A stretch of 64,000 nt of DNA from Prorocentrum cordatum (Eukaryota; Sar; Dinophyceae; Prorocentrales; Prorocentraceae): assembly GCA_963575745.1 (NCBI GenBank), contig CAUYUJ010016304.1, forward strand, positions 171,501-235,500, read 5' to 3'. Positions within the stretch are counted from its first letter, which is position 1. Each line of letters opens with the position of its first letter. The notes beneath the pieces are model-generated. The model did no database searches, was not told the origin of the DNA, and was given only the letters and a program-made list of their open reading frames with translations. Positions 35,852-60,370 of the stretch are shown here, in pieces. The position numbers were made by a program, and so were the translations under genes.

Positions 35852-38002
35852 TGTTGTTGTTATTTCGACTCGGCTATGCCCCAAGAGCTGCCTTACCGTC
35901 ACTGTGTTTGCCTGCCCTGGAACCTAATGCAAGTACTTCGCGCACACATTGCCATGATATATACAACAGTGAAACATGCTACGCAGCTGTGTTAGGCTAA
36001 ACTTGAGATGATGATCATGTAAGACAGAGAAGATCAAGATAATTGTGCGCAGTGCCTCCACCTCTGCTTCCCAACTGTCGGCGAGAAGCGGCCGCCATAA
36101 GCAACCGAAAGCCAACAATTGCCACGTACAGTGAGCAGCCGTACGAACTCGAAGCGCGAAGCCGATCCCTGCCCGGCCACGCTTCCGCCAGCCGCCGTCC
36201 GAGTGCATGAGACAGTGATGGGGAGTACCGACGAAGGAAGACCAAGAAGGACTAAGGCAGATAAAAGACTCCTGGCTATCCATGGTGAGATTGCACAGCC
36301 AATCAGCCTCGGTATTCAGATCCCGACGCCTCCATACCAGAGGGGAGTCCACCACGTGAGGCGCCCTCCGCCCGTTCATAAATGCATGCAGCAACAAATC
36401 AGCAGTCGGGGACAACATGTCGATGTGTTCGAACCTGCAGAAAGAAGATCCGTTCAAGGCCCCAGCCAGAGGTTTGTTATCTACAACACACTGGAAGAAT
36501 TTGGTCGCCTCCTCGGGCGGGGTCCAGGAGCAATCGCACGGAAGAGGCGAGAAGCCGAGGGCCGAAAATATTCTCTCTGTAGACCAATGCGACGCGGTCG
36601 AATCAAAATAAATACTTGTCCATTCCCGATTTTCTGGACCGAGGGCCACGTCCACTATTGCAGGTTCAGCCGGCCCTTGACGGGCCCTTTTTCGATCAGC
36701 GCTGACGGAATCATCGTGGTCACGCTTTCGTTTGGCAGGGCGGAGGCTGCTGGCCCCCTCCACCGGCATCCTTCGAGCGACGTCCGTCTGGAGAGCCAAG
36801 TCGCGATTCCAGCGCGGAAGTTGCCACTGGATGCACAGGCTGTTTACGAACTGGTCCTCCGTAGTTTTCCTAACAGTTGCCCCGGCCTCCATCAACTCCT
36901 CCCACTCCTTGAAATATTCATCCCAAACATCCTCCACCTGGAACACAAGGGCCCCTGGACGACGATACCTCCAATCCCCAGCAGAATCCTCTCGAACCCT
37001 AGTACTATGACGAGCTTCTGCCACCCCCACCGCATGCTCCCCTCGACGGAAAAGAGCAACTTCTCGAAGCGGGTATTCCGGCATACCCTGGGCATCTAGA
37101 CCCCATGACCAATGGAAAGATCGATACCGCCAGCGATGGCACATACGCAACCAACGGTGATGGACATGCGGGATTTCCCACGTGGCGAAGCGGCCTTCCA
37201 GGAGCCTAGCAGTACGACTATTATAACCAAGATGGCCTTCTTGGGGTAGATGTTTAAGCTTGAACGACTTACGCAGCACATTGTCTTCCCAGGCCCGGAG
37301 TTGCTGTAAACGTGCTTGTGTCGGTATCCATGCTTGGCAGTCATATAAAGCGCTGGCCACTGGGCCCCGGCTGAAGGCCCGAGCTTTGGCCTCCCAGCTG
37401 GCCCTCGGATTCAACAGATGTGGGGTGATTTTGCCCAAGTTCCCCTCGGCTTTAAGAAATCTGTGCGAAAATGAAATCGTAGTCCCACCTTCCCTGTCGA
37501 ATCTGGTCCCAAGAACCACCGCCTCGTCTACCACGGGGAAGCGCAAGGTGCCCTGCGACGGAGACTCGATCATGACGTGTGTCGGGGGGGCATCCACCCC
37601 CATACCGCATAGAATAGCACTCTCCTTCATTTTCACTCTGAAGCCGTGCATGTTTAGAGTACGTACGATGTTAGTGACCATGATGGTGATGGTGTGAATG
37701 TCCCTAGCGCAGAGGATAAGGTTATCGGCCCAGATAAGCAATGACAGCAACACATTACCAATCCTAGCCCCGCACTCCTCCCCAGCCCACCGATCAACAA
37801 GACGTCGAAAAATAAAGACCAAAACCAGGTTAAACAGCAACGGTGTTTCCACTCCACCCTGACGCCACCCTTTTTTATAATTGAATTTGCCAGAATTCCC
37901 AACCCCTCTGATGTACATCTCCGCCGATAGGCCAGAAAGCTCCCAGAGAAGTGCAGCTACCAGGGATGAAGTAATCTGGAGCTCCGATAAAGCCCTGTCG
38001 AT
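35852..38002 (-). mobile_element. 5'-truncated LINE insertion ending in a tetranucleotide tail
   Basis: The RT-bearing segment, about 2.15 kb. Its 5' junction falls at about 37997-38002, where coding similarity stops and a satellite module (GCAGGGGTGCCTGGCGTG) begins. After the stop codon there are about 70 nt of 3' sequence ending ATAACAACAACA on the minus strand. This runs straight into a TATG/TCTG tetranucleotide array (35660-35851), a typical kind of LINE 3' end. An AAGACGGCC block (35518-35655) and the large satellite lie on either side, so the element appears to have inserted into satellite DNA. No clear target-site duplication was seen. Confidence 0.75.
35924..38002 (-). CDS. LINE reverse transcriptase / RNase H fragment (5'-truncated, frame intact)
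   Basis: Part of the polyprotein that a non-LTR retrotransposon uses to copy its RNA at the target site. The frame is open from 38002 to the stop at 35924. The first Met (codon at 37916-37918) is not a real start, because RT-like sequence (ALLWELSGLS) continues upstream of it to an in-frame TGA at 38003-38005. Counting from that Met: the RT motif KGWRQGG at about 16-22 followed by PLLFNLVL; the catalytic box WADN at about 63-66, where most RTs have ADD; an RT C-terminal region to about 350; a basic stretch PAKRKRD near 394; a linker NTEADWLCNLTMD near 535-547; then RNase H-like HSDGG (Asp 574) and an acidic EAEVEAL segment near 617-623. The frame ends before any third RNase H Asp is recognisable. 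The endonuclease and the RT N-terminus are absent. Family identity is firm; the dinoflagellate LINE affinity is from memory. Confidence 0.85.
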   Translation of the reverse strand: MDRALSELQITSSLVAALLWELSGLSAEMYIRGVGNSGKFNYKKGWRQGGVETPLLFNLVLVFIFRRLVDRWAGEECGARIGNVLLSLLIWADNLILCARDIHTITIMVTNIVRTLNMHGFRVKMKESAILCGMGVDAPPTHVMIESPSQGTLRFPVVDEAVVLGTRFDREGGTTISFSHRFLKAEGNLGKITPHLLNPRASWEAKARAFSRGPVASALYDCQAWIPTQARLQQLRAWEDNVLRKSFKLKHLPQEGHLGYNSRTARLLEGRFATWEIPHVHHRWLRMCHRWRYRSFHWSWGLDAQGMPEYPLREVALFRRGEHAVGVAEARHSTRVREDSAGDWRYRRPGALVFQVEDVWDEYFKEWEELMEAGATVRKTTEDQFVNSLCIQWQLPRWNRDLALQTDVARRMPVEGASSLRPAKRKRDHDDSVSADRKRARQGPAEPAIVDVALGPENREWTSIYFDSTASHWSTERIFSALGFSPLPCDCSWTPPEEATKFFQCVVDNKPLAGALNGSSFCRFEHIDMLSPTADLLLHAFMNGRRAPHVVDSPLVWRRRDLNTEADWLCNLTMDSQESFICLSPSWSSFVGTPHHCLMHSDGGWRKRGRAGIGFALRVRTAAHCTWQLLAFGCLWRPLLADSWEAEVEALRTIILIFSVLHDHHLKFSLTQLRSMFHCCIYHGNVCAKYLH

Positions 38003-38128
38003 TCATCGCAGGGGTGCCTGGCGTGTTGAATCGAAGACGCCTACGGCGAATCACCGCCGCCCCCTGCCTTTTTGGAAGCGCCTATGTGGTCGAACGTCGA
38101 GGCCAGACCTGCCAAGCTATCGGACCAT

Positions 38129-38167
38129 GTGTTCCCCGAATCAGTTTGAAAAGCCTTCGGGGAACAC
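38129..38167. repeat. 39-nt hairpin in the satellite (reverse arm, 1)
   Basis: GTGTTCCCCGAA and TTCGGGGAACAC form perfect 12-bp arms. Confidence 0.85.
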
Positions 38168-38364
38168 GTGGGCATCTTGACAGTCATCTTGGCCGCCTGG
38201 AGGCCAATTTGACCCTTTCGGGCCTTCTTGGAGGACGTCTTGGAGGGCTCTTGGGCCGTCTTGGAGGCCATCTTGAGCGTCTTGGAGGCCTCTTGGGCCG
38301 TCTTGGGGGCCTCTTGGGGCCGTCTTGGGCCTCTTGGGCGATCTTGGCCAAGCTATCGGACCAT

Positions 38365-38403
38365 GTGTTCCCCGAGTTGGTTTGGAAATCATTCGAGGAA
38401 CAT
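38365..38403. repeat. 39-nt hairpin in the satellite (reverse arm, 2)
   Basis: GTGTTCCCCGA pairs with TCGAGGAACAT; slightly decayed, same length. Confidence 0.8.
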
Positions 38404-39070
38404 GTGGGGGATGATGAACGCGAAGAGGAAGAGGAAGGGAAAGAGGAAGAGTAGGCGGAGGAGGCTTCTTGGGAGCCTCTTGAGGCACTCTTGGGGCTTG
38501 CTGGGAGCGTCCTAGAGGCCTCTTGGAGGGCTCTAGGGGGCCTCCTTGGGCCTGCTGGGGGCATTCGAGGGCTTCTTGGGAACCTCTTTGGCCGTCTTAG
38601 GGCTTTCCTGGCCCGTCTGACGCCGTCGGAAGTCGTCTTGGGGACCTCTCTGAACCGACTTGGGACCTTCTTGGGGCGCCTCAGGGCTGTCTTGGAGGCC
38701 ATCTTGGGCGTCTTGGAGGCCGCTTGGGCCGTTTTGGGCCCTCTCGGGGCCCTCTTGGGGGCCTCTTGGGAGCCTCTTGGGCTGTCATGGGAACATCTTG
38801 GAGGCCTCTTGGGCGGTTTTGGGGTGACCTTGGAGACTTCTTGGCCCGTCTTGGGCCGTCGGAGAGCTGAAAAGAAGAACATGCTAAAATCATCCCAAAA
38901 CGTAATGAAAATCAATAATTGGGGCCCTTTCGGGCCTTCCTGGAGGACGTATTGGAGGGCTCTTGGGCCGTCTTGGAGGCCTCTTGCGGGCCTTTTGGGC
39001 CGTCATAGACCATCTTGAGGCAATCTTGGGCCGTCTTGGGTGCATCTTGGAGCCGTCTTAGCTGGCATCT

Positions 39071-39210
39071 TGGAGGCAGGGGTGCTTGGCGTGCTGAATC
39101 CTCTCGGTTTTGGTTTCGGTTCTTCCAAAAGAACTCCCCCTGGGGCTCCGGCGCGTCCCGCCGGGGTCCTGGGAGATTCCCGAAAATCCATCTGTCAATG
39201 CCTTTGTTGC
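39071..39210 (+). repeat. Module M3 at the orientation switch
   Basis: GGGGTGCTTGGCGTGCTGAA, CGGTTTTGGTTTCGGTTCTT, CAAAAGAACTCCCCCTGGGG and CGTCCCGCCGGGGTCC. Further copies at about 40590-40720 and 42730-42880, always followed by forward 10-12 bp units. Confidence 0.8.
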
Positions 39211-40428
39211 CCCAAGTTGGCCCAAGATGGCCTCCAAGACGGCCAAGGTGGCCTCCAAGATGCCTCCAAGACAGCCAAGATGGCCTCCAAGACAGCCCAA
39301 GAGGGTCCAAGATACCTCCAAGTTCACCCAAGAAGCCTCCAAGACGGCCCGAGACGGCCCAAGAGGTCTCGAAGAGGTCCTTCAGGAGGGCCCGAAGAGG
39401 TCAAAATCATAGATTTTCCTATGGTTTTTGAAGGATTTTGACATTTGCCTCTTTTCGGCCTACCGACGGCTCAAGACGGCCCAAGAGGCCGCCAAGATCG
39501 CCCCAAAATCGCCCACGAGGCCTCCAAGAGGGCCCCATGACGGCCCAAGAGGCCTCCAAGACGGCCCCGAGAGGGCCCCAAGACGGCCCAAGAGACCTCC
39601 AAGACGCCCAAGATGGCCTCCAAGACGGCCCTGAAGCGCCCCAAGAGGACCCGAAGTCGGTTCAGAGAGGCCCCCAAGACGGCTCCCGACGGCGTCAGAC
39701 GGGCCAGGAACCCACCAACATGGCCGAAGTTGGCTCGAAGCTGGCCCAAGACGACCCAAGAGAGAGGGCCTCCAGGAAGCCCAGAAAAGTCACAAAACAT
39801 TGATTTCCTATGGTTTTTGACGGATTTTGACAATTGCCTCTTTTCGGCCTGCCGACGGCTCAAGACGGCCCAAGGGGCCGCCAAGATCGCTCCCCAGTCG
39901 CCCACGAGGCCTCCGAGAAGGCCCCTTCTAATAACGGCCCAAAAGAGGCCTCCAAGACGGCCCCGAGAGGGCCCCAAGACGGCCCAAGAGACCTCCAAGA
40001 CGCTCAAGATGGCCCTCAAGACGGCCCTGAAGCGCCCCAAGAGGACCCCGAGTCGGTTCAGAGAGGCCCCCGAGACGGCTCCCGTCGTCGTCAGACGGGC
40101 CAGGGGCCGGGAACCCACCAAGATGGCCGAGGTTGGCTCGAAGCTGGCCCAAGACGGCCCAAGAGGCCTCCAAGAGGGCCTCCAGGAAGGCCCGAAGATG
40201 CCAAACCCATAGATTGCCCATGAGTTTGTTTTAAAGGATTGTGGGATTTGCCCTTTTTTTCCTGCCTTCCGACGGCCCTTAGACGGCCTCCAAGACGGCC
40301 CAAGAGACCTCCAAGACGTTCAAGATGGCCTCCAAGACGGCCCAAGAGCACTCCAAGACGTCCTCCAAGAAGGCCCGAAAGGGTCGAAATGGCCTCCCGA
40401 CGGCCAAGATGACCTTCAAGATGCCCAC

Positions 40429-40467
40429 GTGTTCCCCGAAGGCTTTTCAAACCGATTCGGGGAACAC
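40429..40467. repeat. 39-nt hairpin in the satellite (forward arm, 1)
   Basis: GTGTTCCCCGAA and TTCGGGGAACAC arms, starting module M1. Confidence 0.85.
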
Positions 40468-40529
40468 ATGATCCGATAGCTTGGCAGGTCTGGCCTCAAC
40501 GTTCGGCCACATAGGCGCTTCCAAAAAGG

Positions 40530-40579
40530 CAGGGGGCGGCGGTGATTCGCCGTAGGCGTCTTCGATCCGCCGCCCCCTG
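40530..40579. repeat. 50-nt GC hairpin, copy 1
   Basis: CAGGGGGCGGCGG and CCGCCGCCCCCTG are perfect 13-bp arms around TGATTCGCCG and a CTTCGAT-ending loop. Confidence 0.85.
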
Positions 40580-42017
40580 TCTATTCATCGCAAGGGTGCC
40601 TGGCGTGCTAAATTATGTCGGTTTTGGTTTTGGCTCTTTTTCCAAAAGAGCTCCCCCTGGGGCTTCGGCCCGTCCCGCCGGGGTCCCGGGAAGGACATCA
40701 ATCCGGAAAAATCCCCCATAACGGCTCAAGATGGCGCCAAGATGGCCACGTTGGCCCAAGATGGCCTCCAAGATGGCTTCCAAGTCCGCCCAAGATGGTC
40801 CAAGACTGCCTCCCATACGGCCCAAGAGAGTCCAAGACGGCCGAAGACAGCCCAAGAGGCCCCCCAGAGGCCTCCAAGACGGCCCAAGAGGCCTCCAAGA
40901 GGTCCTCCAGGAGGGCCCGAAGAGGCCAACATCGTTGATTGTCCCACGGTTTTTGAAGGATTTTCGCATTCGCTTCTTCTCGGCTTTCCGACGACCCAAG
41001 ACGGCCCAAGAGACCCCCAAGATCGCCCCCACAGAGCCCAAGAGGCCTCCAAGATGGCCCCAGAACGGCCCAAGAAGCCCCCAAGACGGCCCCAAGAGGC
41101 CCCTAAGACGGCCCAGGAGGCCTCCAAGACGCCCAAGATGGCCTCCAAGACGGCCCTGGAGCACCCCAAGAAGGCTCCAAGTCGGCCCAGAAAGCCCCCC
41201 AAACGGCTTCCGACGGCGTCAGACGGGCCAGGAGCCCACCAAGATGGCCGAAGTTGGCTCGAAGCTGGCCCAAGAGGCCTCCAAGAGGGCTCCAGGAAGA
41301 CCAGAAAAAGGTAATACAAACACGGATTTGCCCTAGGTTTTCGCAGGATTTTGACATTTGCGTCGTTTCAGCCTTCCGACGGCCCGATACGGCCCAAGAG
41401 CCCCCGAAGATCGCCCAAGGATCGATCGCCCAAGAGGCCTCCAAAATGGCCCCAGAACGCCAAGATGGCCTCCAAGACGGCCCTGGAGCATTCCAAGAGT
41501 GCCCGAAGTCGGCTCAGAGAGGCCCCCCAAACGGCTTACGACGGCGTCGGACGGGCCAGGGGCCCACCAAGACGGCCGAAGTTGGCTCGAAGCTGGCCCA
41601 AGACGGCCAAGAGGCCTCCAAGGGGGCCTCCATTAAGGCCCGAAAAGGCCCAAATCATTGATTTCCCATGAGTTGTTGAAGGATTGTGGCATTTGTTTGG
41701 TTTCGGCCTTCCGATGGACGACGGCCCGAGACGGCCCAAGTGCCCCCAAAGATCGCCCAAGAGGCCCAGGACGGCCCCAAGAGGCCCCCAAGACGGCCGA
41801 AGAGGCCTCCAAGACGCCCAAGATGGCCTCCAAGACGGCCCAAGAGCCCTCCACCCCAACATGCACCCAAGACGGCCCCAGATGGCCTCAGGATGGCCTA
41901 AGGCGGCCCTTCATAGGCCCGCAAGAGGCCTTCAAGACGGCCCAAGACCCCTCCAAGACGTCCTCCAGGAAACCCGAAAACTCGGAAACCACCTAGTCCG
42001 ATAGCTCGCCCGACTCC

Positions 42018-42056
42018 GTGTTCCCCGAAACCTTTCGAAACCCGCTCGGGGAACGC
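42018..42056. repeat. 39-nt hairpin in the satellite (forward arm, 2)
   Basis: GTGTTCCCCGA and TCGGGGAACGC, followed by the palindrome AGCTTGGCCAAGCT. Confidence 0.85.
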
Positions 42057-42569
42057 GTGGCCCGATAGCTTGGCCAAGCTCAAACCCAACTTTCGGCCAA
42101 GCAGGAGCTTCCAAAAAGGCCCGCGAGGCCCAAAATCATTGATTATCCTGTGGTTTTGAAGGATTCTGGCATTCTCTTATTTTCAGCTCTCCGACGGCCC
42201 GAGCGGCCCCCACCATCGGCCCAAGAGCGCCCAAGAGGCCTCCAAGGCGGCCCCATGACAGCCCAAGAGGCCCCCAAGATGGCCCCAAGAAGGCCCCAGG
42301 ACGGCCCAAGAGGCCCCGAAGACGCCCAAGATGGCCTCCAAGACGGCCAAGATGGCCTCCAAAATGCCTCAAAGACGGCCAAGATGGCCTCCAAGGCAGC
42401 GAAGATGGCCCCAAGATGCACCCAAGACGGCCCCAGATGGCCTAAGATGGCCTTCGACTGCCCAAAAGGCCCGCAAGAGGCCTCCAAGACGGCCCAAGAC
42501 CCCTCCAAGACATCCTCCAGGAGGCCCGAAAGCTCGGAAACCACCTGGTCCGATAGCTCGCCCGACTCG

Positions 42570-42608
42570 GTGTTCCCCGAAGGCTTTCGAAACCCACTCG
42601 GGGAAAGC
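42570..42608. repeat. 39-nt hairpin in the satellite (forward arm, 3)
   Basis: GTGTTCCCCGA with TCGGGGAAAGC, followed by AGCTTGGCCAAGCT. Confidence 0.8.
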
Positions 42609-42671
42609 GTAACCCGATAGCTTGGCCAAGCTCAAAGCCAACTTTCGGCCAAGCAGGCGCTTCCAAAAAGG

Positions 42672-42721
42672 CAGGGGGCGGCGGTGATTCGCCGATGGCG
42701 TCTTCGATCCGCCGCCCCCTG
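42672..42721. repeat. 50-nt GC hairpin, copy 2
   Basis: Same 13-bp arms and same loop length as 40530-40579, one loop change (CGATGG for CGTAGG). Confidence 0.85.
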
Positions 42722-43519
42722 TTGGCTTGCCACAGGGGTGCCCGGCGTGCTAGATCATTTCGATTTGGGTTGTGGTTCTTTCCAAAACAATTCCCCCTGG
42801 GGCTTCGGCTGATCCCGCCGGGGTCCCTGAAAGGCCCCGCAACCACCTCAACGACCGCAAACAATTCTCCAATACGGCTCAAGATGGCTTCTAAGATGGT
42901 CACGTTGGCCCGAGATGGCCTCCAAGATGGCACAAGATGGCGTCCGAGTCGCCAAAGATGGTCCAAGATGGCTTCAAAGACGGCCCGAGAGAGTCCAAGA
43001 TGCCTTCCAAGAAGCCTCCAAAAAAGCCCAACATGGCTCCAAGATGGCCTACGACTGGCCAAGAGGCCTCCAAGACGTCCTCCAGGAAGGCCCGAAAAGG
43101 CAAAAATCATGGATTTCCATGGTTTTTCTCCGACGGCCCAAGACAGCCCAAGAGGTCCCCAACATCGTCCCAAGAGCGCCCAAGAGGCCTCCACGATGGC
43201 CCCACGACAGCCCAAGAGGCCCCCAAGATGGCCCCAAGAAGGCCCCAAGACGGCCCAAGGGGCCCCAAAGACCCCCAAGATGGCCTCCAAGACGTCCAAG
43301 ATGGCCTCCGAGATGCCTCCAAGACGGCCAAGAAGGCATCCAAGACAGCGCAGATGGCCCCAAGATGCACCCAAGACGGCCCCAAATGGCCTGAAGATAG
43401 CCTTAGACTGCCCAAACGGCCCGCAAGAGGCCTTCAAGACGGCCCAAGACCCCTCCAAGACGTCCTCCAGGAAACCCGAAAACTCGGAAACCACCTGGTC
43501 CGATAGCTCGCCCGACTCC

Positions 43520-43814
43520 GTGTTCCCCGAAACCTTTCGAAACCCGCTCGAGGAACGCGTGGCCCGATAGCTTGGCCAAGCTCAAACCCAACTTTCGGCC
43601 AAGCAGGCGCTTCCAAAAAGGCAGGGGGCGGCGGTGACTCGCCGATGGCGTCTTCGATAACGCCAACTTTTCAATATGCGCTGATGATTCCTATCCGCCC
43701 CCGCATGCTGTTCCCAGATGCGCCAAGGCAGCGCCGCGACGCACCGACGCGACTCTGTTAGATCCCATTATGAGAAAGAGGGACAGGCTGTAGGGGACGA
43801 AACCCTTATGGATG
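43520..43814 (+). repeat. Satellite modules M1-M6, second copy, closing the array
   Basis: A 39-nt hairpin (43520-43558), AGCTTGGCCAAGCT, GGCGGCGGTGACTCGCCGAT, then TTTCAATATGCGCTGATGAT, ATGCTGTTCCCAGATGCGCC and GACTCTGTTA. Matches 14090-14390. Confidence 0.85.
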
Positions 43815-45603: not shown

Positions 45604-45968
45604 CCACGGTGCAGCGTCCCCCTCTGGATGCGCACCACACGATTCGGTGATCCGGGGAGCTCAGGGTCCTCTAGGACGCACCCCAGTCGGCGGCTGCAGA
45701 AGAACCCAGCGCAACGGGAAGGGATGAGTGGGACTCCTGCCCTTTCCCACCCCCGCTCCATGCACGCTGTTGTTCCTCCTCCTCTGTCTCCCCTTCTCCT
45801 CCTCGTCGTGCACCCTTTTCCTGTCCCCCCACCTCCTTCCCCTTGCACCCTTCCCTCCCCTCTGCCAACAACCCTCTCCGTCATCCTTCCCCTTTGTCTC
45901 CGGTTTCCGCACACTTCTTTTCCTCCGGGTTGTTCGTTCGATCGAAATTGATTCGGATACTGCTACCC
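45604..45968. other. No gene seen
   Basis: CT-rich sequence leading up to the spliced-leader-like word. Confidence 0.4.
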
Positions 45969-45992
45969 TCCGTAGCCAAAATTATGGCTCAA
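45969..45992 (+). other. Relict dinoflagellate spliced-leader sequence
   Basis: The bases TCCGTAGCCA, then AAATTAT, then GGCTCAA match the 22-nt dinoflagellate spliced leader (CCGTAGCCATTTTGGCTCAAG class). Differences are a 3-nt insertion, one substitution in the T run, and loss of the last G. In dinoflagellates this leader is added to mRNAs by trans-splicing, and relict copies in the genome mark genes that were reverse-transcribed and re-inserted. It lies 5' of, and in the same orientation as, the LINE relic starting at about 45.98 kb. It is not an SL RNA gene: no GT donor or Sm-like site follows. Confidence 0.6.
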
Positions 45993-46499
45993 TCCGCTTC
46001 CTGGGTCAAAGCTCGAGCTGGTGCTGGGGAGTCGCAGCCCCCCCCCCGCTACTCGGACTCCCCAATTGCCAGGGTGCGCGCCTAAGTTCAGTGAACCAAA
46101 TCAATTGAATCTGGTACCTGTCCGTTCCGTTGCACTGCAGCGGGAACGCGCACTGGGCTTGCCGAATTCGCTACCGGCGTGGCAAGACAACCCGTGACCA
46201 AGTCCATGGCCGCGCTCGCCAGAATGCTGTGCGTCCCGCGCGATCTGAACAGCGGCCTCCTGGTGGCGCACGGGCTGGCCATGCCTCGCGACAAGCTCGA
46301 GAACAGCTCAACCAACTCGAGAGGCAGAACGCCAACCTCCTCAGACCGCCGAAATCGCCCAGCCCACTGGCGACGGCGTCCACCGCTGCTGCTGCTGCTG
46401 CTCTTCAGGTGCAAGTTCTGGAGGAAGCTATCCAAAGCACTGGCCACCCTCGACAAATTCTCTGCCGTGCGCAAGTAGCTGCCTTCCGTGGCCTCAGCG

Positions 46500-46660
46500 A
46501 CGTTCCAAGACGGTCCCGAATCGCGGAACACTTGGCCCAGGGCGCCTACGATGGCTCCCAAGACCCCACAAGACGCCTTCGAGACGGCCCAAGAGCCTTC
46601 CCATAAGGGCCCCGAGAGACAAACAACCATGGTTTTCCTTTGGTGTTTCATCGATGCTGG
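46500..46660 (+). repeat. AAGACGGCC-type block inside the LINE relic
   Basis: CCAAGACGGTCCCGAATCGC and CCCAAGACCCCACAAGACGC units, closing with CATGGTTTTCCTTTGGTG, a weak match to module M5. It interrupts the coiled-coil part of the relic. Confidence 0.6.
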
Positions 46661-48042
46661 GGTTACCATCTCTTGAGCCCCGATCCCAGCTTCCTTCGTG
46701 TGTCGCCCAGCAGACTGAGCTGGTCCGCAAGGCCCAGCAAGTAGGCTTCACCAGAGACGCAAGACAAGGTCCACTCCGCCAAGTCGGAGGTGGAGGTCCT
46801 CAAAGAAAGAGCTTGCAACTAACTTACGCGTGTCCGCCGACGTCGCTCCCGTCAGCCTCGCCCCAGTGCTGACATGAAGGCATTGCTCGAGATGCCTGCC
46901 TTCAAAAAAGACGCCCAGGCGATGCAGGAGGCAATGCGGGCCAAGAGACAACCCACGTCGGGTGCACTTGCGCCCGAGCCCCGTGACCAGCCCACGCCGC
47001 CAGCTGCTGAGGACCTTGAGAAAGGGGAGATTGCTAAGACGATCGCGGCTTTCCGGGCCCAGGGGAGAAGGGGACAAGCGGGCCCTGTGTAACGCTCTGG
47101 CCAGAGCGGGGGTCAAGCGGACGAAGGTGGGCCCTGCACCAAGGCAACCCAGTGAGAGACGAGGAATACACAATTCGATATCAGCCCGCCGGTTCGCAGC
47201 CGATGTGGCGAGTCTTCGGAATTGCCGTCGATTGAACTTTGAGGCTGAGGGCTCTGGAGATGTCGTCCCAGGAAGTTTGATCAGCACGCTGGTTGACCTG
47301 GAAGGTTGGTCCCCTTTGCAGGTGTTGGTTACTTCCAGACATCACAAGGGCTGAGTGAGAGCAACCTGGATATCCTGGCCAAGGCCGGGCAGTGCATCCA
47401 GCACCAACCAGGAGCACGTGATGTCGGCACTGATTGGAATGTCTCCAACCCTCGTGCAAGAGTCCCGGTTTCCGAGGAGACTCGGACTGCCAACCATGGT
47501 GCCTGAGAACGCGACTTGTATATTTGCGAGCATTTCGACAGTAATCGTTTTCTTCCTTATGGAATCTGGGGTTTCGCGAGTGAACAACTCGATTACTTCC
47601 TGCACTCAACGTCACATCAGGCCCAATCGGCCAAGTTTTGTTCAAATGAGTACTTATGAAATACACGTTCGACAAATAGTGCACCGGCCGCGCTCTCAAA
47701 TGCCAGTTGGGTTTCCTTTCGGACCAAAACCGTAGTCACGGCAGTGGACGGCTGCTACTCTGCTTGCCGAACAAACCGCGCGACGGATCGGTGGGAGAGG
47801 CCTGGCACAAGCTCAACTCAGCCTGGAAGGATCTCATGGGCGATACTAAATTTGGTACTTCTGCCACCTATTGCTAAACCTGATTTTCGCAGCGAGCCCT
47901 TGAGAGCATAATGGGCATCCCTCTTCTAATTATCGTCCCAGAACGTTGGATGACAGCGTTCAGATTTCTGTGGGATGGCGGCGCCTGCATCACGTGCTGG
48001 ACTATCTCATGACTCTGGCGCGCTCGGCACCAGATTTGCATG

Positions 48043-48222
48043 CGGTCGGACCTAAGACAGAAAAACAGTCTTCAAGAACATGAGATCCTCCGCCGGCCAA
48101 ACACCCCTAAACCAAAAGATCACTCGAAGATACCCCCCAGGATGCACAATAACATCCAACAAGCACGAAGAACCTTATGGTATCCTCCCCGAACTGACTT
48201 CGATCGTATGCTAGGTCCGAGC
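48043..48222. mobile_element. TIR family E, copy 2
   Basis: Left CGGTCGGACCTAAG, right CTAGGTCCGAGCG. Interior TTCAAGAACATGAGATCCTC and CCTCCCCGAACTGACTTCGA as in copies 1 and 3. Inserted within the LINE relic. Confidence 0.7.
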
Positions 48223-48361
48223 GTAGCAGCATTTCCCTGGCCAACGCTGGTGCAGGGATGTCGGTCCGTTTTGATGCCGTTCGTGGCCAGCCTCGGCGCC
48301 TTGCCCAGCATTCCACAGGAAGCGATTCCATGTTGAGACTGGGCACAATCGGTCCTTCTTG

Positions 48362-48558
48362 TCGGCGGCGAGCAAGGGGAGACAATGAGAAGGATCAAGC
48401 CTTCTCAGAAGGCGGCGCGGCTTCTCAGAAGGCCTCTGGTCTTCTGAGAGGTTTTCTGCGTCTACGGGGAAAACAGAAAACTTCTCAAAGGCCGGAAGAC
48501 TTCCGAGCCTTCTGAGAAGACCCGCCCGTTCTCACTTCCCCCGCGGGCTCGCCGCCGA
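48362..48558. mobile_element. TIR family C, copy 1 (197 bp)
   Basis: Long inverted ends: TCGGCGGCGAGC, then AATGAGAAGG and CTTCTCAGAAGG at the left; CCTTCTGAGAAG, CGTTCTCACTT and GCTCGCCGCCGA at the right, about 50 bp in all. Non-coding. Confidence 0.8.
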
Positions 48559-50603
48559 ATCACACGCGATTGCGATGAGGCTGTCAAGGAGGCGCTGGTG
48601 AAAGACAACAGGAAAATCGTGGAATGAATGGCCGGAGCAGGCCCTGGCAGGCAACGCCAGAGGCTTCCACCGACTCACCTGATTGAAGCAAGCCTGCATG
48701 TCTACAGTTCTGTCCAAATCTCCAGGAATCGTCTCAGCGAGCCACGTGGATCTCTTGGCCGATGAGGCCCAGACCCTCTCGGAGTTCTGGCATGCTTATG
48801 GATGCCCCCCCCTGGCTGGCATGCCTGACCTGGACTGCGTTCCACGAGCCGCGGTGCCAGGTATCCGCGCGGCCGCGTACTCTGCGGTGGAAGGACGCTT
48901 GGCCAGGCCTTGCTGTCGGCATGTCCGATGCCGAGCTTCAGAGTGCTAGGGGGGGCCCCGAGGAGTTGTAAAGTTCCCTCTCATTGCGGCCCTTCCCTCG
49001 CTGCCAAGGTGGTCCTCCACGGCTGCCCGGTTTAGAAGGCCGGCGTTGCCCTGGCCATCCAGTGTGCCAGCGTTGCTTGAATTGATGCCGCCCACCCCTC
49101 GATGGCCTCCCCCTGCGCGTTAGCTCGTGCGCATTTTCCAGCAGGTGGCCCATCAGGTCAAAGGCGACTTCTCAGGGAGGCGCAGCAAGGGCCCGGAGCA
49201 CCGCATGCTGATATCGCTGCACCGCATAGGATGGCAGACAGAACATGTTTCGTGCTGGGAGGACGACTTGCAAAGGGAGGTAGATTTGTTGTATACCTCC
49301 CCTGCTACAGTCGCCATGCTTCCTTCCCACGGGGGGACTTCCTGGTTTCTGCGGGGGCGGGGCGTGCGTGGACCCGATTCGGACCATGGTATGCACCAGT
49401 AGGAAATGCACCCCGAGAGCCATGTCTGTGATTGCTAATTTATGTTGCATCGGGATTTGGACTTAAGGCAGGGTCGGTACTTCAGGGTATCAAATCGACG
49501 GGCTTTGCACACTGTGCGAACAGCCAGATTCGCTGCCTCACCGACACTGGGAATGCAACCACCCTGACGTGGTACAAGCTCGGGAGGCCACAACGTCGCC
49601 TGGGCTAATGAAGGAGGCTCGTGCTTCCAGCCCAAACGATGTCATTTGTCGGACCAAAAAAAAACTGTTTTCGATCACCCGGCATCTTCATGGCTGGCAC
49701 CATTTCCTCACGTCGCGACAGACATTCACGATTCTGGCGGCGCCCTCCTTCCGATGGAGGCCATGGGGGAGTTACAAAAGACAAGAGTCTGACGTTGCTC
49801 CAGACGGACGGCGCTTGCTCTAGACATCCGGTCCCGGATCATACTGAAGCGTCCTAGGCGAGGGTATGTTTTGGAGATGGCCTCAGCATTCAAGCCAGAG
49901 TTCAAGGTGTTGCTTGGGACGGGCTTCCCCAGACCCCTCAGGAAGGTGAGCATGTATTTCTAACGTAGCTGAGCTGTTTTGCACGTAGCCCCTGGCAGCC
50001 TAATTCTGACTGCCTAGGTGCTGTCAGGCGCCCTGGGTCGGTCGCAACCATTCAGCTTCAATGCAGACATATGCAGACAGATGTGTGCGGGCGCACGCTG
50101 GGCTGCAATGCAGAAGAACGCTCAGAAATTCGTCTTGCCTGCTAAGCAGGCCCCTGACCACCGAAGCCTCAAGATTATCGAAGCGCTACCGATGCATGAA
50201 CAGAGGATTAGTCCAGCGATGCGACTGAACGTCTTATCTTACCAAGCAGGCCCTGCTCAAAGATCATCAGACCTCCGCGGCTGCGATGGTGGATTTGAAT
50301 TTAGTCAAATGCAAGGCGATCGCGAGGGTCGTTGCAGATTTTGCCGCTGTTCCCCAACGCGGAAATGAAGTGGAGCCCCCGCCCACCTGAGCCAAGACTG
50401 CACGAATTTGTTGGGCAGGCTGCGCCAAGGGAATGAACTTCGGAATGAGAACCTCGTCTGGGCGGAGCGGGCGAGGCCTTGACCTCGCACAAATAGCAAG
50501 CGGGCTGCGAATTTACTCAGAGAGTGAACTCGTCACAAAAATAGCGTCTCCAATTTCGTCTACTGTGCATCCTCGGTAGCCACTTTGAGACATTCTGTGT
50601 TGT

Positions 50604-53437: not shown

Positions 53438-53627
53438 GCCGCCATGAGAAGTGAGAAGGAGAAGGCCGTCTCAAAGGCGGCACGATTTCTCATCAGAAGC
53501 CCTCGCGCCTTCTAAAGAGCTTCCTGTGCATTCGGGGGAGGCTCGGAAAGCTTCTCAAAGGCCGGGGGACTTCCGAGCCTTCTGAGAAGCCCTTCTCCTT
53601 CTCACGCCCCCCCAAGGCTCACCGCCG
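53438..53627. mobile_element. TIR family C, copy 2
   Basis: AGTGAGAAGGAGAAGGCC at the left mirrors CCCTTCTCCTTCTCACGC at the right; CTCACCGCCGA closes the outer right end. Interior TTCTCAAAGGCCGGGGGACT and CTTCCGAGCCTTCTGAGAAG. Confidence 0.75.
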
Positions 53628-53774
53628 AAAGTAGGAAGGCGGACAGGCTCAGGCCCCCCAGATAATAGTGAAACACTGCGAAAGCATATCGACTCTTGAA
53701 GTAGGAAGGCGCTTGAAGGATAGTTATTGGGATCTGGAGATCCAATCATACCTACTTTGAACGACCAGCGTGTA

Positions 53775-53886: not shown

Positions 53887-54090
53887 CGGCCAGACCCAGG
53901 ACATAAGAACGTCCTTCAATAGCATGAAGCCCTGCGCCGGCCAAGCCAAACTAAATAACTGTCGAGGGTACCCTTCCGACATCGCCAAGACACCGTTTAG
54001 CTCAAGCCCGGACAAGAACGTTCAACAAACACGAAGAACATCAGGGTACCCTCCCCGAACCGACCTAGATCTTCTACCTCGGTCCGACCG
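53887..54090. mobile_element. TIR family E, copy 3, between two family F copies
   Basis: CGGCCAGACCCAGG at the left and CCTCGGTCCGACCG at the right. Interior AAGAACGTCCTTCAATAGCA and GGTACCCTCCCCGAACCGAC. Confidence 0.7.
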
Positions 54091-54214
54091 TAAGTATGCG
54101 AGGACCTTGGAAGGCCACGCCGACACTTTCTCAGCGTGGCGCGGCCAACGAAAGTAGCCAAGGAGGGGCCGAAGGGAAAGGATACGAGGGATCCCTTGGA
54201 ACGTCGCTTATCCT
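54091..54214. mobile_element. TIR family F, copy 3
   Basis: TAAGTATGCGAGGACCTTGG, CGGCCAACGAAAGTAGCCAA and TCGCTTATCCTTGC. Confidence 0.65.
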
Positions 54215-59721: not shown

Positions 59722-60188
59722 CGACCCCCTGGGTCGCCAGTTCTTGAGTGAGACGGGGCGGGGGGGTGTCCCCTGCTGGACGATGGGATCCTTTTTAGAA
59801 CTCCAGGTCCCCTGTGACAAGCGCCCGCAGATAGAGAAGGAATCGGCTCTTTGGGAAGGGATGGGTGGGAGGGGTAGGATGCCAGATATGGGGCGAGCGC
59901 ACCTAGCTTGTCCCTCCCTCTCCTCCTCCTCTTCCTCCTCCTCCTCGTCCTCCTCCTCGCTCGAGGTCGCGGATCGGGGTCCTCGGCCATCTCAAGCCCC
60001 TCTTCGGGCCTCCGTCGTCCAGACTGGCCCCCCGTCCGGGGGGGGGGGAGGGAGCGCGCCCCGATCAGGACTCTGGCGGCCGGTCCAGAAGGCGGCGAGT
60101 GGGCTTCCCGAGAGGCCGCCGCCGACGCTGTCTGCTCCGCCCTCTTCCCAACTCGTCCTCGCCATCTGTATTGCCTCTCGTCCCCTTC

Positions 60189-60370
60189 TCGGCGGCGAGC
60201 GACGGGGTGAAGTGGGAGGGAGAAGGCCTTCTCGGAAGGCGGCGGGACTTCTCAGAAGCCCTCGCGCCTTGTGAGAGAAGTGTCCTGCGTCTTCGGGCAC
60301 GGTTCAGGGAACTTCTCAGAAGGCTGGGGGACTTCCGAACCTTCTGAAAAGGCCTGACCATCTTGTCGCC
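60189..60370. mobile_element. TIR family C, copy 3
   Basis: TCGGCGGCGAGCGACGGGG and AGGCCTTCTCGGAAGG at the left; CCTTCTGAAAAGGCCT at the right. Interior CTCAGAAGCCCTCGCGCC and GGGGGACTTCCGAACC. The outer right end is diverged. Confidence 0.65.

Follow-up and report, generated by a model that had tools for sequence, protein, structure and literature searches.

In the genome of Prorocentrum cordatum, a short split word resembling the dinoflagellate spliced leader (DinoSL, TCCGTAGCCATTTTGGCTCAAG) stands directly 5′ of a decayed LINE, which raises the question of whether the leader belongs to the element and how it came to stand there. Genomic relicts of DinoSL are a standard mark of dinoflagellate retrogenes. 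The locus lies in a 64,000-nucleotide stretch of DNA (the window, 58.9% GC), for which a preliminary description had proposed that the transcript of the LINE was itself trans-spliced and then re-inserted with its leader, which would mark the true 5′ end of a full-length element. Our analysis indicates that the worn DinoSL is very probably the 5′ terminus of a LINE insertion, one whose RNA would have been trans-spliced, reverse-transcribed and reinserted together with the leader.

Results

The split word was reproduced in both coordinates and spacing: 5′ of the LINE relic and on the same (+) strand, TCCGTAGCCA (45969-45978) is separated by 7 nt (AAATTAT) from GGCTCAA (45986-45992), which is followed by a T. 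Aligned to DinoSL, the stretch at 45969-45993 is recognisable as a relict of the 22-nt leader, with 20 of 22 bases matching, a 3-nt insertion (AAA), one T-to-A change and a final G-to-T change. The 10-mer TCCGTAGCCA alone shows no excess (3 matches with at most one mismatch vs. 3.5 expected in shuffles). The whole leader alignment at 45969 is the top-scoring one in the window on both strands; with four scoring schemes, 0, 1, 0 and 0 of 60 block-shuffled windows reached its score, and in the window itself one scrambled leader in 1000 and one random 22-mer in 500 scored as high. Taken alone, a match at about 1 in 1000 per window, from an unknown number of windows, is suggestive only, and the leader assignment was settled because of related copies, not by single-window statistics. 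A change point in composition at about 45940-45959 (interval 45920-46008) is not decisive, and Rfam and tRNA scans returned nothing.

Related copies were sought in the 4,128,499,153-base assembly (4.13 Gb, 21,875 contigs) with the relic DNA at 45925-46460. At least three places were returned besides the window, on contigs C19433 (locus L073), C14039 (L074/L075) and C10957 (L076), and an exact 22-nt DinoSL stands at the 5′ end of all three. The check suggested in the preliminary description, a search for the leader at the same offset in other copies, was run on these three places, found without leader selection: an exact DinoSL heads each of them, and the word does not fall inside element sequence conserved on both sides.

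The claim that the leader marks the true 5′ end of the element also held. Homology between L074 and the relic starts at 45969, the first base of the leader, even though the query began 29-44 bases upstream, and the degenerate leader (45969-45993, +) aligns base for base to the exact leaders of L074 and L067, the latter a copy from the exact-leader list that matches the relic over the leader and the next 12 bases. Pairwise comparison of the sequence flanking the five copies upstream (80 nt for L067, 300 nt for each of the others) gave no match at a threshold of E 0.01, and homology on the element side runs from base 1 in the pairs L073/L074, L073/L076, L074/L076, L074/relic, L067/L074 and L067/relic; between L067 and either L073 or L076 the match is limited to the leader and a few bases. 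In the relic itself, the retroposed message starts with the leader, next to an unrelated flank.

What follows the leader varies from copy to copy. In L073 and L076 the exact leader is followed by a second, worn one and this by a ACCTGACCTTACTGGC-like 5′ UTR, which differs from that of L074. Because their 5′ UTR differs, homology of the relic to L073 and L076 begins only in ORF1, and one ORF1 family is thus joined to the same leader via two 5′ UTRs. The exact leader is invariant while the following sequence differs by about 25-35% between copies; an invariant leader with different 5′ UTRs behind it is as would be expected if the leader were added afresh. An exact leader, a worn second leader and a TGACCTTACTGGC-like stretch of 5′ UTR are common to L020, L048, L009, L073 and L076 (the second leader of L009 is of the truncated type described below), and 5′ UTR modules look as if they were shared between ORF1 families.

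Mapping by tblastn with ORFs from leader-headed loci of the same genome placed ORF1, then the endonuclease, the linker and finally the CCHC tail at 46109-50028 on the + strand, a collinear arrangement that bears out the identification of a LINE relic. The leader is followed by a 5′ UTR remnant (45994-46122, +) that is continuous with it in the match to L074 (45969-46122; 69% over 167 columns, E 8e-18). The ORF1 relic, with its zinc-finger and coiled-coil region (46109-46481, +; tblastn with ORF1 of L074, L076 and L073, best E 2e-15; DNA 62-73% to L073-L076), is broken in frame and has lost the start codon of its relatives (MAGDDPDVLPGPRQPVWSCTTCGRNSNWACRVRC..). After a stretch at 46499-46613 that resembles the 38-43.6 kb minisatellite (CCCAAGACGGC type; blastn and tblastn within the window) comes the 3′ part of ORF1 (46696-47156, +; tblastn with L073 at 46696-46945, E 5e-6, and with L074 at 46944-47156, E 9e-12). 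The APE-type endonuclease region of ORF2 (47229-48044, +), also broken, was recognised by homology to L073 (47229-47507, E 1e-19), L074, L020, L037 and L023, with L032 extending to 48044; the GADWN motif of the relatives' endonuclease reads GTDWN in the relic. The ORF2 linker region (48581-48883, +; L037, 39-40% identity, E 4e-14 and 3e-16) precedes the C-terminal region of ORF2 (48964-50028, +; L032 at 48964-49655, E 9e-14, and at 49894-50028, E 4e-4; L039 at 49452-49643, E 1e-7), which has a CCHC motif at 49506 (CTLCEQPDSLPHRHWEC). The ORF1 zinc finger and coiled coil and the C-terminal CCHC are thus present by homology; a strict zinc-finger pattern fails on the broken finger. Two dispersed repeats lie within the relic, one at 48047-48224 (similar DNA at window positions 54012-54092 and in L005, and L042 by protein comparison) and one at 48358-48559 (copies at window positions 53452-53629 and 60185-60354); the 48358-48559 set and the 48146-48225/54012-54092 set form two short families, 75-79% alike.

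The suggestion of a full-length element was not borne out: the relic has frameshifts and inserted repeats, and neither Pfam nor tblastn gave a match to reverse transcriptase (RT). Because the RT core match is absent, the relic is a 5′-complete but damaged LINE remnant, not an intact element. Pfam searches of ten stop-free pieces returned sub-threshold matches only, with no RT and no endonuclease. Codon statistics learned from the RT ORF of the window itself favoured no frame of the relic and were dominated by pyrimidine and purine tracts. Comparison of the 5′ flank with 46.1-54 kb revealed no shared repeat of at least 8 nt that could be a target-site duplication, the 3′ end of the relic being undefined. 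Searches of protein databases (5.8 billion proteins) returned no relative of the relic, and viral contigs searched with ORF1 and with the 36-kb RT ORF returned nothing.

Exact DinoSL occurs 11,610 times in the genome (5903 + 5707; backwards control 0 + 0). From the 100 matches listed of these 11,610 we read 68 exact-leader loci (L004-L071) in listing order, leaving out one listed place that lay inside a locus already taken. Forty loci (L012-L051) were long enough for a coding test with ten LINE protein queries, nine of them from these loci (self-matches dropped, E 1e-5). A LINE protein was found on the leader's strand in 29 of the 40 and on the opposite strand in 0 of 40; the other 11 gave no LINE match. 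Pfam endonuclease, RT or RNase H domains were present in 11 of the 31 loci tested among these 40 (E ≤ 1e-3), four of them above a curated cut-off, and RT is present in the leader-headed relatives L012, L014, L019 and L043. A zinc-finger motif lies at most 450 nt behind the leader in 13/68 loci, and on the reverse strand in 0/68.

The split pattern TCCGTAGCCA-N(5-12)-GGCTCAA has 639 matches in the whole genome (328 + 311; backwards control 0 + 0), and many of those listed are plain leader variants. At least 16 of the 100 split-word matches listed are a palindromic repeat whose core is not leader-like, so that not every split word is a leader. This repeat (TCCGTAGCCACTGCAGTGGCTCAA) has its palindromic core between leader-like ends, and the family is not plainly leader-derived. 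The leader followed by CCGTTTCC was found at 4 exact places, and at 2783 with up to three mismatches anywhere. Exact DinoSL also turned up in three other contigs (L001, L002 and L003), one from IMG/VR and two deposited under Dehalococcoidia genomes; contamination with dinoflagellate DNA is the probable reason. A GT comes after the leader in L003, an arrangement typical of SL RNA genes.

Leaders can also be stacked. In a sample of 71 sites (the 68 exact-leader loci with L073, L074 and L076), a second, older leader lies directly behind the first in 18, compared with 1 of 4260 controls at the same thresholds; the exact-leader search is the source of 68 of these sites. L073 and L076 are among the 18. 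Thirteen inner leaders are of a truncated type that starts with CCA, cut at the AG of CCGTAG, and five are nearly full length; these five are worn, retaining 14-20 of 22 bases, and the outer leaders are exact. Similar stacking is described in PMC6616646 and PMC12014239, and in the account of PMC3229502 the new leader is spliced at the AG of the old one, which removes its first seven bases. Behind the leader of the relic no second leader was found, 0.17 of control windows scoring equally; a relict DinoSL need not be stacked.

Directly upstream of the leader, a tract with a period of 1-6 nt is present in 43 of the 68 exact-leader loci, compared with 87 of 1280 control positions in the window; on the downstream side of leaders, 2 of 612 positions have one. 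The tract types include TCC, GGA, TA and TCA; by a separate measure, 31 of the 68 loci have pyrimidine (TCC-like) and 12 have purine tracts, figures to be read with the search pattern in mind, which starts with T and may favour TCC junctions but cannot favour purine tracts. A microsatellite-like, pyrimidine or purine tract precedes 25 of the 29 LINE-matching loci and 6 of the other 11. Leader-bearing insertions seem to favour microsatellites. At the relic, a pyrimidine-rich tract (45740-45930; 75-90% pyrimidine in 40-nt steps) lies 5′ of the element, separated from the leader by 38 nt of ordinary sequence; our guess is that this is possibly a worn target microsatellite.

Origin of the leader

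Any account of the locus has to accommodate the leader at the exact 5′ end of the sister copies, the strand bias of the LINE matches, the stacking and the microsatellite context. From these we infer that the LINE RNA was itself trans-spliced, that target-primed reverse transcription ran through to the leader, and that read-through transcription entered from outside the element. Host trans-splicing would add the 22-nt leader to the LINE RNA, the LINE machinery would reverse-transcribe this leader-bearing RNA, and the copy would be inserted, often into a microsatellite (TCC or GGA tracts). On re-transcription of such a copy, a fresh leader would be spliced to an AG that lies within the old leader or immediately ahead of it; leaders would thereby be renewed and sometimes stacked. 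A wider proposal has two parts, and we regard the case for both together as evenly balanced: the LINEs here may use the host leader as a renewable 5′ end, needing no promoter of their own, and read-through transcripts of any unidirectional gene array may be trimmed at the AG of the old leader and re-leadered, the insertion carrying its own trans-splice acceptor.

The main live rival to renewal by trans-splicing holds that the LINE encodes a leader-like 5′ end, obtained by mimicry or capture and copied from element to element instead of being trans-spliced anew. At first sight an encoded leader would give the same picture, with every copy headed by a leader, and a dinoflagellate virus with a 5′ dinoSL is discussed as molecular mimicry in PMC10235124. 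We nonetheless consider this improbable, since the outer leaders of stacks are exact and the inner ones worn (with 68 of 71 sites from the exact-leader search) and since the same ORF1 family has the leader before two different 5′ UTRs. Much less probable still is an independent sequence just before the LINE, either a host message that was retroposed on its own or a stray copy of an SL RNA gene. Dinoflagellates commonly have SL genes, and retrogenes that bear leader relicts, according to PMC6616646 and PMC8045281, but the base after the leader already belongs to the LINE 5′ UTR common with L074, and leaders lie on the LINE strand by 29 to 0; directly behind the leader there is LINE sequence and no host coding sequence was found.

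A chance leader-like word in unrelated sequence, which the score equalled by about 1/1000 scrambled leaders and the unknown number of windows read would allow, is refuted by the sister copies, as the exact leaders of L074 and L067 align to it and the bases behind are common to relic and copies, and we give it next to no credence. Scarcely conceivable, too, is that GGCTCAA represents codons 2-4 of ORF1 (ATGGCTCAA, Met-Ala-Gln, then SASWVK) and is like the leader by coincidence: there is an ATG at 45984 with 33 open codons after it, but the relatives have no ATG there, and their ORF1 starts MAGDDPDVLP.. or MSGDGPGVLR.. about 160-200 nt further on (MAGDDPDVLPGPRQPVWSCTTCGRNSNWACR.. in L074). The candidate ORF1 start at 45984 was rejected on the reading of the sister copies, TTTTGGCTCAAG, and judged by these alignments the ATG arose by mutation within the leader. 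A candidate trans-splice acceptor (CTACCCTCCGTAG then CC) became unneeded once L074 showed an exact leader there.

Relation to known systems

Relict DinoSL on retroposed host genes is well documented and is credited to Slamovits and Keeling 2008, as cited in PMC3229502, PMC6050394 and PMC12014239. The same 22-nt leader, the re-insertion of a processed message and stacking on inner relicts of the CCA type, cut at the AG behind nucleotide 7, recur here. In those accounts it is a host gene that was carried, supposedly by means of retrotransposons, whereas most of the exact leaders sampled here head the LINE itself. The flatworm study PMC12582326 tied 597 discarded SL candidates to mobile elements, mainly LTR and LINE, and suggested trans-spliced retrotransposon transcripts as the source of the partial leaders at these elements; this is a remark on partial leaders in animals, whereas the present case comprises exact leaders, family alignments, flank tests and stacking in a dinoflagellate. 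For endogenized dinoRNAV, a dinoSL was reported at most 500 bp from 6 of 26 RdRp ORFs and LINE-mediated retroposition was proposed (PMC10235124); there the cargo is viral, and here it is the LINE itself. Trypanosomatid LINEs also live in a trans-splicing host, but those with the Pr77 promoter are described as giving abundant unspliced transcripts from this internal 5′ promoter (PMC8190864), in contrast to a leader as 5′ end. Like APE-type LINEs (PF03372, PF00078), the leader-headed loci have an ORF1 zinc finger, endonuclease, RT and CCHC tail; unlike them, they start 5′ with the host leader, and the relic is without the RT region. Searches of open PMC papers yielded no report of leader-headed dinoflagellate LINEs.

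If LINEs do use the host leader as a renewable 5′ end, many of the 11,610 exact leaders would mark 5′ ends of LINEs instead of retrogenes, and LINEs would inflate any retrogene count that relies on leader relicts; should most exact leaders head LINEs, the retrogene mark would need a LINE filter. Such use would also give LINE families with ill-defined limits an exact 5′ boundary and account for the complete 5′ ends of LINEs that have no promoter of their own. The source of reverse transcriptase would then be linked to the same cycle of leaders.

Other features of the window

On the minus strand at 35927-38002, a 692-codon open frame encodes a partial reverse transcriptase (RVT_1, E 1e-5, below the cut-off) with weak matches to LINE-1 ORF2p chains, and we assign it to a second LINE of another family; no leader-like match was found near the 5′ side of this fragment. 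A large, diverged minisatellite field of CCCAAGACGGC-type units, in direct and inverted copies, occupies 38030-43658, and related pieces occur at 14.1 kb and, within the relic, at 46.5 kb.
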